The notes below the pieces were generated by a model, which worked only from the letters and a program-made list of their open reading frames with translations, was not told the DNA's origin and searched no databases. Below are positions 16,031-44,849 of a stretch of 64,000 nt of DNA, piece by piece. The stretch comes from Laceyella sediminis. Its GTDB lineage: Bacteria; Bacillota; Bacilli; Thermoactinomycetales; Thermoactinomycetaceae. Positions within the stretch are counted from its first letter, which is position 1; every line of letters begins with the position of its first letter. The translations under genes were made by a program, and so were the position numbers. The stretch is taken from assembly GCF_003003125.1 (NCBI RefSeq), contig NZ_PVTZ01000011.1, positions 1 through 64,000 of the forward strand, read 5' to 3'.

Positions 16031-17509
16031 TTATTCCTGATCAGATACAAACACATAATGCTCTGCAAAGAACTTGTCCAAATCTCGCCCGCTGGTTTGT
16101 TCCATGATGCGGATGAAGTCTTTGGTGGTGGTGATGTCGAATTTCTTTTGTTTGTAGTAGGCTTGCATCGAGGCATAAAATTGCTTGTCTCCCAACAGCT
16201 TGCGCAAGTCGTTCAAGGTGCGGGCGCCGTAATCGTAGACCGTGTCGTAGTAGGCGTTGATGCCTTCTTGGCCGTAGGCGGTGAAATAGGAGATCGGATG
16301 GGAGAGATGGAATCCGGGAATCGGTTCGGCGGTGAGTTGGTCGAGTTCGTTGTCATATAGAGCGGCGGCGAAAGTGGCGAAGGATTCATCTAACCAAGCC
16401 TCGTCATATTCGTTGTTGCCAATGATGCCGTAGAACCATTGGTGTCCGATTTCGTGGGCATTGACGCTACGTACCCAGGCCGGGGTGGCGTTGTCACGGA
16501 GGGAGATCATGACCAGCTGCGGATATTCCATGCCACCAAACCAGCCTTTCATGCTGACTACATCCAGTTCTGGCCAAGGATAAGCGCCGAATTTTTCACT
16601 GAAGAGCTTCATGCTGTCCACGCCGCTTTGCAGGAGGTCTTGGGAGAACTTGGCGTGCTCTTCCGCGTAGTAGACATTCACTTTCACTTTGTTGACGGTG
16701 GTGGAGATGATTTTGTAGTTGGGGTTCATCTCCATGGCGAAGTCACGCACCTGTTTGGCGATATAACGATGGGTGGCGAGGTTTCCTTTGAGCTTGGGCT
16801 TCCCGATTTCGGTTCCGGTTGCGGCGATGACTTGCTTTTTGTCGGTGGTGACGGTGACGTCGAAGTTGCCGGTCAGGGAGTAAAAGCTTTCACCGTATGG
16901 AAAATAAGGGTCGACGTTCCAGCCTTCATCATCATAGACGGCCAAAATGGGGAACCAATTGCCCAAGGAAACGGTGTCACCATCCCAACCGAACCGGTCC
17001 TGCCCCTTTGGCACATGGACGGTGAAATCCATGGAAACAGTGGACTTGCGGTTTTTGGGCAAGGTGGCGTCAATGTGCAAGGCGGTTTCTTGAAGGTGAT
17101 GGTTGGCTGTTTTCCCATTCACTTTCACGTTTTTTACATCCATGCCACCCCCGTTTGTACGGAAATTGGCGGCGTTGCCCCAGAGGTTGAAGTATACCTC
17201 GTTCAAGCGAACCCCGGTGTTGTTGGTGAAGGTGACAGATAGTTTTCCGTTAATGATATGGTTTTGGCTATCATAGGTGACATGCATTTTATAATTCGGA
17301 TGAATCGGGCCGCGTGTGACACGCTGGTTTTTCTTGTGTTTGTTGAATGGCTTAGGCACTTTTCCCTCTGTGATTGCATGCTCGGCTTGCGGGGGAAGAT
17401 AGGCTCCAGCGGGTGTGTCGACAGGCGATTGTGCGAAACTGACACCCGGTGCGAGCATGGTTCCCAATGCGAGGGTGCTGGCGAAGATGCTTTTCCAAGT
17501 GGTCCACAT
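16031..17509 (-). CDS. Secreted M1-family zinc aminopeptidase
   Basis: 492 residues. A cleavable signal peptide (TWKSIFASTLALGTMLAPG, cleavage near SFA-Q) indicates export. The gluzincin motif HEIGHQWFYG followed 18 residues later by the Glu in DEAWLDESFA is the M1 zinc site, and the upstream exopeptidase-like segment is GGMEYPQLVMI. An N-terminal beta-rich domain (residues 60-220) precedes the catalytic part, and the helical domain is short, so it is a compact M1 protein like those annotated M1 family metallopeptidase in Bacillales. It would trim peptides outside the cell. GGAGGAAAG lies before the ATG. It diverges from cobQ and has its own terminator. Confidence 0.9.
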   Translation of the reverse strand: MWTTWKSIFASTLALGTMLAPGVSFAQSPVDTPAGAYLPPQAEHAITEGKVPKPFNKHKKNQRVTRGPIHPNYKMHVTYDSQNHIINGKLSVTFTNNTGVRLNEVYFNLWGNAANFRTNGGGMDVKNVKVNGKTANHHLQETALHIDATLPKNRKSTVSMDFTVHVPKGQDRFGWDGDTVSLGNWFPILAVYDDEGWNVDPYFPYGESFYSLTGNFDVTVTTDKKQVIAATGTEIGKPKLKGNLATHRYIAKQVRDFAMEMNPNYKIISTTVNKVKVNVYYAEEHAKFSQDLLQSGVDSMKLFSEKFGAYPWPELDVVSMKGWFGGMEYPQLVMISLRDNATPAWVRSVNAHEIGHQWFYGIIGNNEYDEAWLDESFATFAAALYDNELDQLTAEPIPGFHLSHPISYFTAYGQEGINAYYDTVYDYGARTLNDLRKLLGDKQFYASMQAYYKQKKFDITTTKDFIRIMEQTSGRDLDKFFAEHYVFVSDQE

Positions 17510-17723
17510 GATGCTTTCCTCCTTGTAAATTGAATAATCAAATATTTCTACATTTATAAATAAAATCCTTTATTATTGAATTGCTTACCGCGACAACACC
17601 GTTTCTCGAGTCCAAACACAAGGCTAGCCAGCGCTTGCACATGATGGTCTTCTGGGCTAAGATAAGCGAGATGTACGAAGGTCTTGCTGATGATTCCACT
17701 TGATATCCAAAGGGGAGGATATA

Positions 17724-19211
17724 TTGAAGACGATCATGATCCAAGGCACTGCATCTGATGTGGGAAAAAGCGTGATTTGTACGGCCTTATGCCGGCATTT
17801 TTATGAACGGGGCTATCGAGTGGCGCCTTTTAAATCGCAAAATATGTCTTTAAACTCTTATGTGACACGCTCGGGTCATGAGATCGGCCGAGCGCAAGGA
17901 GCGCAGGCGGAGGCGGCAGGGATTGAAGCGACATACGACATGAATCCGATTCTCCTCAAACCGAAAGGGGAGATGGTGTCGGAAGTGATCGTGCATGGGA
18001 AGCGATGGGCAGATATGCCTGCGATGGCGTACCGCGCTCGGACGTTGGAGGAGATGTTGGAACCAGTGCGGGCGTCGCTTGCGCGTTTGGCGGAACAAGT
18101 GGAAGTATTGGTGATTGAAGGGGCGGGTAGCCCGGCTGAAATTAATTTGAAAGATCGTGATATTGCCAATATGCGAGTTGCCGAGTTGGTGGATGCTCCC
18201 GTCTTGTTGGTGGCGGATATCGAGCGGGGTGGGATGTTTGCGTCTTGCGTAGGAACATATGAACTCTTGACTGAAGAGGAGCGAAAACGGGTTAAGGGAT
18301 GGATCGTCAATAAGTTTCGTGGAAGCAAAGAATTGCTGGAATCCGGCCTGGCTTGGCTGGAAGAGAGGACTGGCGCCCCGGTTCTGGGTGTCCTGCCAAC
18401 CATCCGAATGGAAGTAGATCCAGAAGATTCTCTCGCTTTGCAAAACATGCGCGGCGATCAACAAGCGGGGGACAAGCTGGACGTGGCAATTGTGCGCCTA
18501 CCCTATATTTCCAACTTCACTGATTTTGTGCCGTTGTCCCGCCAGTCGGCATGCGCTGTCCGTTATGTGCAGTCTGTGGAGCAGTTGGGTGCGCCGGATG
18601 TGATCATCCTCCCAGGCACCAAAAACACCATCCATGATTTGCAGTGGCTTAAAGCGAATGGCTGGATGGAAGCGATCCAACAAGCTTATGAACGCGGGGC
18701 GTTTGTCGTTGGCATTTGCGGTGGATATCAGATGTTGGGTAGTGTGCTGCGGGATGAAGAGCAGGTCGAGGGTGCTGGCGGGGTAGAGTCAGGGTTAGGT
18801 TTGCTTGCGGTAGAGACCGATTTTGTGCCTGTTAAAGAAACAAGGCAACAAACAGGGTACCTGCTAGCGGAGTGGGCTGATCAAGTGGAAGTGTCCGGTT
18901 ATGAGATACATCTGGGGCGCACCACCAGGGGAAAGGGTGTCATGCCGTTGTTGCGTTGGGTCGATGGAAGAGAAGATGGAGCGATATCTGCCAATGGGCG
19001 GGTCATGGGGACGTATCTGCACGGGTTGTTTGACAATGAACGGTTTGTGCAAAAGTGGTTGCAGTTTATTGGAGAGGCGAAGGGGTTGACGCTCGCCTCA
19101 GATCCCGCCGTTGACCGCCAACAAGTGTATGCTGATTTGGCAGAGTGGTTGCGCCAGCATGTGGATGTGGAGCGAATCGAAAGGATCATGGGCATACACA
19201 CAGACAGATGA
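17724..19211 (+). CDS. cobQ: Cobyric acid synthase
   Basis: Amidates side chains b, d, e and g of adenosylcobyrinic a,c-diamide using glutamine and ATP. The 495-residue protein has an N-terminal dethiobiotin-synthetase-like ATPase (MIQGTASDVGKSVICTALCR, then NPILLKPKGEM) and a C-terminal triad glutamine amidotransferase (VGICGGYQMLG with the nucleophilic Cys, YLHGLFDN with the His). I chose the TTG at 17724 after GGGGAGGA; the N-terminus LKTIMIQGT matches the family. It is solitary: no other cobalamin gene lies nearby, so it may serve salvage of corrinoids, or the pathway lies elsewhere. Confidence 0.95.
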   Translation: MKTIMIQGTASDVGKSVICTALCRHFYERGYRVAPFKSQNMSLNSYVTRSGHEIGRAQGAQAEAAGIEATYDMNPILLKPKGEMVSEVIVHGKRWADMPAMAYRARTLEEMLEPVRASLARLAEQVEVLVIEGAGSPAEINLKDRDIANMRVAELVDAPVLLVADIERGGMFASCVGTYELLTEEERKRVKGWIVNKFRGSKELLESGLAWLEERTGAPVLGVLPTIRMEVDPEDSLALQNMRGDQQAGDKLDVAIVRLPYISNFTDFVPLSRQSACAVRYVQSVEQLGAPDVIILPGTKNTIHDLQWLKANGWMEAIQQAYERGAFVVGICGGYQMLGSVLRDEEQVEGAGGVESGLGLLAVETDFVPVKETRQQTGYLLAEWADQVEVSGYEIHLGRTTRGKGVMPLLRWVDGREDGAISANGRVMGTYLHGLFDNERFVQKWLQFIGEAKGLTLASDPAVDRQQVYADLAEWLRQHVDVERIERIMGIHTDR

Positions 19212-42718: not shown

Positions 42719-43192
42719 TCACTCCGAATCTTCAGGAAGATCAGGTAGAATCCACGGAATCTTAGCCACAAACTCTAGCTGTATAACGGATTTTGGGAAA
42801 ATAGGTGATACCAATTGAAGATTTCTGGTAAACCCCATTTCAAAAGAATCTATTTTAATCAAGTTGATTTGATTCCAATTTTCAGGAGGTAACATACAGT
42901 CCGGTCCTTTTAACATTTCACCAACTAGATGATACCAACCACCGTAAAGATGCATTTGGTTTTCTTGCTCATATTCACTGATGTCCCCAGCACTTTTCGT
43001 TGGGTCTATTCCAAGCAATTCAAAGAATGAGCGTAATGGATTTGAAAAGTTTTTTGCTACCTCGGTGTAGTTGCGACAATAAATGCAACCACACTCCTCA
43101 GCAAAAGTACCAAGCTGAGAGTATAATCTTGTCGTTTGTTCAACATCTACTTTTAATAACCAGTCTTTTATTCTTATTTCCTTTATTGTCAT
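42719..43192 (-). CDS. Conserved hypothetical protein with CxxC pair
   Basis: 157 residues, soluble, acidic. CGCIYCRNYTEVAKNF holds a C-x-C-x2-C cluster that could bind zinc. LLGIDPTKSAGDISEY and MHLYGGWYHLVGEM are further conserved-looking segments. From memory the pattern recurs in small Bacillales hypothetical proteins, but I cannot name a family. No ribosome binding site of note except GGGGAGGTAATGACA just before the ATG, which is good (GGGGAGG). It is isolated on the minus strand, AT-rich, perhaps horizontally acquired. Confidence 0.65.
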   Translation of the reverse strand: MTIKEIRIKDWLLKVDVEQTTRLYSQLGTFAEECGCIYCRNYTEVAKNFSNPLRSFFELLGIDPTKSAGDISEYEQENQMHLYGGWYHLVGEMLKGPDCMLPPENWNQINLIKIDSFEMGFTRNLQLVSPIFPKSVIQLEFVAKIPWILPDLPEDSE

Positions 43193-43375
43193 TACCTCCC
43201 CTGCAGATTACGAAAATACTACTGCAAGTTTATCAGAGGTGTATAGATTTTTATATGTTAATAGCATTTTAATTTGTTGGTGTCACCGCATCTTGAAAAA
43301 AACACTGCAATCATCAGATTGATTTTGATGAAAGATAAGCGTTTAAGCCGGTGAAACAGCTCTCAGCTATAAAAC

Positions 43376-43403
43376 CAGGCCCATTCTGTTTAGAATGGGC
43401 CTG
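43376..43403. terminator. Bidirectional terminator
   Basis: Perfect 12-bp stem CAGGCCCATTCT / AGAATGGGCCTG with a 4-nt loop, between AAAA and TTAAAC flanks; it terminates the metzincin-CAP gene on the minus strand. Confidence 0.75.
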
Positions 43404-43424
43404 ATTAAACAAGATGTGTTTGGT

Positions 43425-44756
43425 CTATCTTCTGATGAATTGTTGTGTCCAGTAAGTTCCATAAGAACCGCCTTTGGCAAAACCAACGCCGATGGTCGTG
43501 TAATTGGGATTCAAGATGTTGCTACGGTGTCCGGGGCTGTTCATCCAAGAATTCATCACATCTTGCGGGGTTTGTTGTCCAGCGGCGATGTTTTCACCCG
43601 CATAGGTGTATTGGATACCAAACTTTCTCATCATGTCAAATGGAGAGCCATAAGTGGGCGATTGGTGAGAGAAATAGTTGTTGTCTCTCATATCTTCTGA
43701 TTTCAATCTGGCAACTTGAGACAATTTGGCATCCATCTGCAAAGGTTTATATCCTCTCCGTGTCCGTTCTTGGTTTACCAATTGAACGACTTGTGTTTCA
43801 AAGGAGGAAGGGTTAGAGGTTGGTACGTCTGGTTTATTTGGTTTATTGTTGTTATTTTGATCATTTTGATTGTTTTGGTTATTTTGTCTATTTCCGTACC
43901 AGTATTTGTTTCGCTCGATGATTTGGTTATGTTTTTGGTCCCAAATGTCCACCTGTGTCGTGTAATAATAGTTCATGATGCATCTTTCATATTGTGGGCC
44001 GTGTAAGTCATGTGGCACACCGAAGTTATGGGACAGTTCGTGTTGAACAACATGCCAAATAGCATTGGGATGCATGTCTGCCGTTACACTGACGGCACTT
44101 CCACCTGGGCCCCCCGTGGGCTGCATATAAGCGATTCCACCATAATTAAAGTAAGCGTCTTTGGTAAATCCGATGACAAAATCATAAACCCCTCTGTTTT
44201 TGTCTCGGTCCAAATCTTGCAGAATTTGCTCCCCGTTGTACCCATCTGATTTCCACTCGAGATATCCTGAAATCTTAAAATCGACTTGGTGATCGCGGAT
44301 AAACGCATTGTCCGCTTTTTCGACAATCTCTTTCGTTCTGTTTTGCCAATCAGGGTAAGCTCTTCGGTATTCTTCATCCGCCGCGATAACCGCGGTGACC
44401 ACCCGGTTTTTGGATTTTAAAGCTGCTTTTGGTGTTTTAGCAATGTGCTTTTGCCCTACCACTTTTCCTTTCTCGTTAATCACTTTGGCAGTGGTGTCCT
44501 GTTCGATGACAGTAGGTTCATTGGTTGCTTTGGGAGTGTTTTTTGGTAGTGGGTCAGATACGATCTTTACCTTACTACCAAGGGATACTACTTTTTCTGG
44601 TTGTGATACAGGTTTTGAGCCAAACCAACCTAAGATATGGTCAATCCATGACGTTTCCTTGGCAGGACTGGTTCCGTCGGCATAAACGGTGCCCATACTA
44701 GCAAATAACAGGACAACGAGCATGACGATAGGCAATATGCGAAGCTTTTTGGTCAC
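43425..44756 (-). CDS. Secreted metzincin-type metalloprotease fused to a CAP domain
   Basis: 443 residues from GTG 44756, preceded by GGGGGGTGG; the frame to 44849 is non-coding. Signal peptide: LRILPIVMLVVLLFASMG, cleavage near VYA-D. The central domain (about residues 110-290) has a metzincin zinc site HELSHNFGVPHD and a Met-turn CIMNYYY, so it should be an active extracellular zinc protease. A linker rich in Asn/Gln (QNNQNDQNNNNKPNKP) leads to a C-terminal CAP/SCP domain of ~125 residues (QLVNQERTRRGYKPLQMD, YFSHQSPTYGSPFDMM, AGENIAAGQQTPQDVM, SPGHRSNILNP) of the YkwD type. The combination is unusual. It is a single-gene unit on the minus strand. Confidence 0.85.
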   Translation of the reverse strand: MTKKLRILPIVMLVVLLFASMGTVYADGTSPAKETSWIDHILGWFGSKPVSQPEKVVSLGSKVKIVSDPLPKNTPKATNEPTVIEQDTTAKVINEKGKVVGQKHIAKTPKAALKSKNRVVTAVIAADEEYRRAYPDWQNRTKEIVEKADNAFIRDHQVDFKISGYLEWKSDGYNGEQILQDLDRDKNRGVYDFVIGFTKDAYFNYGGIAYMQPTGGPGGSAVSVTADMHPNAIWHVVQHELSHNFGVPHDLHGPQYERCIMNYYYTTQVDIWDQKHNQIIERNKYWYGNRQNNQNNQNDQNNNNKPNKPDVPTSNPSSFETQVVQLVNQERTRRGYKPLQMDAKLSQVARLKSEDMRDNNYFSHQSPTYGSPFDMMRKFGIQYTYAGENIAAGQQTPQDVMNSWMNSPGHRSNILNPNYTTIGVGFAKGGSYGTYWTQQFIRR

Positions 44757-44849
44757 AAGACCACCCCCCTGTGAAATGGTTTGGAATGGTAAGAAAAGAA
44801 TCTCATTTGATACGTTTTGAATTATATAACACGAAATTAAAGCCTTCAA

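Follow-up and report, generated by a model that had tools for sequence, protein, structure and literature searches.

A gene of Laceyella sediminis codes for a single protein in which an adamalysin-type metzincin is joined through a linker to a YkwD-type CAP domain, a new and rarely seen pairing of known domains, not a new kind of system. The gene lies in a window of 64,000 nucleotides, which is the whole stretch of DNA analysed (contig NZ_PVTZ01000011.1). The original prediction had read from this DNA a full metzincin zinc site and Met-turn in a central domain, an Asn/Gln-rich linker and a YkwD-type CAP domain, and all of these were confirmed, so that the architecture, as read from sequence, is well supported; a role for the CAP domain is what we infer. 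Here a natural fusion joins a bacterial CAP domain and a bacillary adamalysin-like protease in one protein from which each half can be removed, which could show what the CAP domain binds and what such proteases cut. The fusion alone leaves the picture of either family unchanged.

The fusion gene and its domains

The fusion gene occupies positions 43425-44756 of the window, on the minus strand as all the features given below, starts with a GTG codon and keeps an intact frame of 443 amino acid residues plus stop, delimited by the open frame and the domain matches. Chance or a frame artefact as the origin of this frame is ruled out by its intactness, by the homologues and by the dN/dS values. A G-rich stretch 5' of the GTG codon (44760-44771), read from the sequence, is a putative ribosome-binding site. 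The product would begin with a putative Sec-type signal peptide, recognised by eye (residues 1-26, ending in VYA; 44679-44756), and continue with a pro-region (residues 27-115; 44412-44678), defined by the equivalent region in standalone relatives and presumed to be taken off upon activation of the protease. The metzincin catalytic domain (residues 116-290; 43887-44411), an Asn/Gln/Pro-rich linker (residues 291-316; 43809-43886) and the CAP domain (residues 317-443; 43428-43808) follow.

A terminator-like hairpin of 15 pairs, identified by RNA folding, is located 18 bases 3' of the stop codon (43373-43406; the fold of 43360-43430 has -26.7 kcal/mol and z -6.06), which suggests that the fusion gene is probably transcribed on its own. 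An operon with functional neighbours was considered and rejected, since the neighbouring frames (an O-methyltransferase, a TrmB-type regulator, a glutathione peroxidase and an unmatched frame of 157 residues) show no functional link with the fusion gene, which has its own hairpin. The 157-residue frame (window positions 42719-43192, minus strand) has no Pfam match at E 0.01, and the gap between the fusion gene and the glutathione peroxidase gene of Laceyella sacchari (L003 6315-6482) holds no frame of this size. A sigma-70-like promoter match (10 of 12) at 44849-44821 means little; 7 such sites were found, against 6.5 in shuffles.

In the central domain, Reprolysin_5 (PF13688) was matched on residues 117-269 (E 1.6e-20, 74.6 bits, Pfam cut-off 27) and Reprolysin_3 also passed (44.6 bits, Pfam cut-off 22.4), with Reprolysin (PF01421; 18.5 bits, cut-off 20.8), Reprolysin_4 (19.7 bits, cut-off 22) and Reprolysin_2 (17.5 bits, cut-off 27) below their cut-offs. 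The HExxHxxGxxH/D zinc site of metzincins is present as HELSHNFGVPHD (residues 239-250; 44007-44042), with an invariant core (H239, E240, H243, G246, H249 and D250) in all eight rows of A1, the alignment and profile of eight metzincin relatives. The Met-turn, CIMNY (residues 259-263; 43968-43982), is likewise present, and its C, M, N and Y are invariant in the same eight rows. Compared with the PDB sequences, the A1 profile retrieved snake-venom metalloproteinases, ADAMs and an archaemetzincin (best E 2.1e-6). A structural model of the catalytic domain (residues 111-293, built from seven sequences), of moderate confidence (mean pLDDT 60.7; poorest around the Met-turn, there under 50), has the metzincin fold: in Foldseek its nearest structures are venom metalloproteinases and ADAM8/ADAM22 (prob 1.00; 3 matches with E <= 0.001), and in VIA-align they are again, among the 50 matches listed, ADAM and venom metalloproteinase catalytic domains (Z 9.0-10.0, 137-158 residues aligned, rmsd 3.6-5.0, 11-18% identity). 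With Pfam, the PDB profile search and the fold comparison in agreement on a metzincin, the fold class predicted for the central domain is well supported.

Among the matches listed, the catalytic domains of snake-venom metalloproteinases and of ADAM/ADAMTS proteins (M12B) are thus the nearest to the metzincin half, both as solved folds and as PDB sequences, but the identity is low. Animal adamalysins carry conserved disulfides, and animal M12B proteins carry other accessory domains. C259, in the Met-turn and invariant in the eight rows of A1, is the sole cysteine of the fusion protein, and therefore the disulfides of animal adamalysins cannot form; judged by its sequence, the protein is classed as a bacterial adamalysin-like metzincin and not as an animal-type adamalysin. 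The closest characterised protease is MprBp from Bacillus pumilus, described together with MprBi from B. intermedius as a secreted adamalysin-like metalloendopeptidase with the zinc motif and the Met-turn (PMC10779165). Both enzymes are secreted Bacilli metzincins of the adamalysin/reprolysin type, as would be the metzincin half here, but a CAP domain is undescribed for them, and the standalone copies found here also stop at the metzincin domain. The standalone copies of f20/g41 probably belong to the MprBp/MprBi family as described there, an assignment made by family and motif and not by alignment with the sequences of the named enzymes.

The C-terminal half was matched by the CAP family PF00188 on residues 325-440 (E 5.1e-26, 92.3 bits, Pfam cut-off 21.1) and, in common with YkwD-type CAP proteins, by the NCBIfam model spore_YkwD, TIGR02909, on residues 318-441 (E 1.3e-62, 209.3 bits, cut-off 171). 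By sequence, the solved structures closest to it are 4ifa (E 2.1e-23), 4h0a and 4d53. At the sequence motif positions H364, E388 and H410 are kept, presumably as residues of the CAP central tetrad. Laceyella is spore-forming. At the search threshold, CAP genes number two in the window genome: the fusion gene and, on C5, one that stands alone. The YkwD-type CAP relatives compared here differ from the fusion protein in that their N-terminal part is short, lipobox-like or LysM and in that, fusions excepted, they have no protease. LysM was found in four of the six CAP relatives scanned, which had been selected in part for LysM recognisable by eye. In 61 distinct CAP frames, counting by crude patterns yielded 6 LysM-like and 14 lipobox-like matches, one of the latter being false (the window's own, which sits before its start codon). 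The NCBIfam equivalog model of DalA, from Rhodobacter sphaeroides, also matches the CAP half, far below its cut-off (66.4 bits vs 200, E 2.7e-18). DalA binds peptidoglycan non-covalently (PMC10470522); it differs from the fusion protein in being an outer-membrane lipoprotein without protease.

Distribution and origin of the fusion

Among the loci compared, 49 distinct frames match a metzincin profile and 34 of them constitute the close family (E below 1e-60); a CAP domain is present in three of the 34, all three from the taxonomic order of the window genome, and in none of the remaining 15. Among the frames compared, metzincin and CAP share a frame only in the window genome, in L. sacchari (broken) and in G037, a genome from another family of the same order, so that a common architecture was rejected for the genomes sampled. 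The domain-architecture search, which covers the window's own phylum (with one further sample of 11 genomes of the same phylum), hence finds the fusion to be rare. The metzincin query was matched in 4/42 genomes of the order (the window genome, L. sacchari, G037, with two metzincin genes, and G007, whose metzincin is divergent and has no CAP) and in 9/398 genomes of the class, and the profile in 11/398 genomes of the phylum sample. Matches were also obtained in 11/295 genomes of family f9 and in 30/80 genomes of family f20, all of one genus, and PF13688 was matched in 37/299 genomes of the class, in 7/299 above the cut-off (these genome samples overlap). In family f20, 15 of the 35 places lie outside the frame comparison and have open frames of 52-288 aa, too short for the fusion.

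The metzincin-CAP fusion is undescribed in the open-access papers searched (most subscription papers lie outside that search). Joining a protease to a CAP domain is in itself not without precedent, as a serine protease of this kind was listed in 2008: the trypsin-PPC-SCP protein YP_434226.1 resembles the fusion protein in being a protease from a prokaryote and in carrying CAP (SCP, PF00188) at its C-terminus, but it has another fold and a PPC domain in between, and it is the single protein listed (PMC2605481).

A mobile origin was also rejected, as the metzincin tblastn gave no match against 72,556 records from plasmids and 50,697 from phages and a viral-contig scan yielded only five standalone metzincins, a second profile leading to the same five contigs. 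These contigs (L113-L117, called viral in IMG/VR) carry standalone metzincins of this family, possibly genes flanking prophages. In another genus of the phylum (g194), two metzincin-like frames, L053 and L054, have tandem repeats of ~50 aa before their protease part.

G037 has a standalone metzincin of 307 aa (L041) and a fusion of 555 aa (L043), ~10 kb apart, and the linker of its fusion is Asp/Glu-rich, unrelated to the Asn/Gln linker of Laceyella. This fusion (L089:14511-16178, minus strand) immediately follows, on the same strand, a gene (16340-18988) for a subtilase that contains PA and Ig-like domains. In the metzincin tree, which omits the divergent metzincin-like rows L042, L052, L053 and L054 and any row shorter than 150 aa, the standalone copy of G037 adjoins the Laceyella fusions, with the fusion of G037 outside them (starred support). 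A single fusion clade was rejected, with p-AU 0.029 for 27 rows and 0.0078 for 11 rows, a chosen subset of the 27. In the CAP trees, where pieces under 105 aa were dropped (both broken L. sacchari pieces among them), the two fused CAP domains were sisters in 0/200 bootstrap trees; constraining them together, with four long rows dropped (L107, L108, L109 and L009), gave p-AU 0.34 and was not rejected. Alignment A2 was not used, its metzincin-only rows being misaligned.

Since the metzincin tree rejects a single clade and the CAP tree does not, the fusion may have arisen either twice, or once with one loss. That the linkers are unrelated speaks slightly for two fusions. The last residues of the standalone G037 copy, WYGNKNNGE, bear a faint resemblance to the beginning of the Laceyella linker, and this speaks slightly for the loss; no CAP remnant was found by tblastn near this copy. 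It is possible, if somewhat doubtful, that within one order two independent events joined these two domain families, with a linker of Asn/Gln type in Laceyella and one of Asp/Glu type in a distant genus; in that case, YkwD-type CAP and adamalysin-type protease would be a selected functional pair, with the CAP domain giving the address or the substrate.

Selection and possible role of the CAP domain

The L. sacchari protein has the same architecture, at 95-96% identity, and, this broken copy excepted, the fusion appears conserved in sequence within the genus. Between the two Laceyella copies we counted 20 synonymous and 2 nonsynonymous differences in the metzincin domain (dN/dS 0.022), 8 and 1 in the CAP domain (dN/dS 0.03, over the 121 codons outside the deletion) and 5 and 9 in the pro-region (dN/dS 0.53). 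The metzincin and CAP domains are under strong purifying selection and the pro-region is not, and conserved domains with a drifting pro-region would be as expected for a zymogen. In L. sacchari DSM 43356 (L003:5001-6315), the CAP part carries a 17-bp deletion that shifts the frame, and the remaining frame of 368 aa contains the protease and a cut-short CAP domain. Because divergence is low on both sides of the deletion, this break, seen in one strain, would be either recent or an assembly or strain-specific error.

We tentatively favour, as the most plausible reading, a secreted zymogen zinc endopeptidase tethered by its CAP domain near a wall, spore-surface or extracellular partner. The protein would be exported via its Sec-type signal peptide, which would then be removed, and removal of the pro-region would follow, giving an adamalysin-type metzincin. 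The YkwD-type CAP domain, riding at the metzincin C-terminus on a flexible linker, would bind a partner in the cell wall, on the spore surface or outside the cell, and so keep the protease close to its protein substrates. The original prediction had likewise suggested a protease directed by, or acting on, cell-wall or secreted partners. Secretion, zymogen removal, catalytic activity and a tethering or partner-binding role of the CAP domain are what we infer in this reading, which accords with domains that pass curated cut-offs, with the metzincin fold class, with invariant zinc-site and Met-turn residues and with purifying selection on the metzincin and the CAP domain but not on the pro-region.

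By analogy, the DalA match below cut-off and the presence of LysM in CAP relatives speak for a CAP domain that acts on the wall side. Nevertheless, where CAP relatives have LysM or a lipobox-like site, a further anchor seems to be required, an argument against CAP as the anchor; and because these relatives often carry such an anchor of their own, the role of the CAP domain may be to bind a partner rather than to anchor. Against a need for tethering, L. sacchari DSM 43356 keeps the protease though its CAP domain is broken, and, as far as intact frames show, the standalone relatives would work without CAP.

It is rather unlikely that the CAP domain is a dispensable tail, acquired by chance recombination, and that the protease acts like its standalone relatives: the loss of CAP integrity in L. 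sacchari DSM 43356 and the 31 of 34 distinct close-family frames without CAP are consistent with it, but the CAP dN/dS of 0.03 and the existence of a second fusion in G037 argue against it. The linker might also be a processing site, cut by the metzincin or by another protease to give a separate protease and a separate CAP protein, with the fusion serving for co-expression only. Both fusions have long, low-complexity linkers, with sequences unrelated between the two, and both halves occur alone within the same order; even so, we consider processing unlikely, as the standalone CAP gene of the window genome would make a released CAP domain partly redundant. Direct regulation of the protease by the CAP domain, as an intramolecular inhibitor or as a metal- or ligand-sensing domain, is quite improbable, since a linker that is long and flexible gives no hint of a fixed interface and the full-length model (pLDDT 41.8) is too poor to reveal one, even if H364, E388 and H410 are kept and the SCP domain of the trypsin-PPC-SCP protein is assigned a calcium-chelating, signalling role (PMC2605481).
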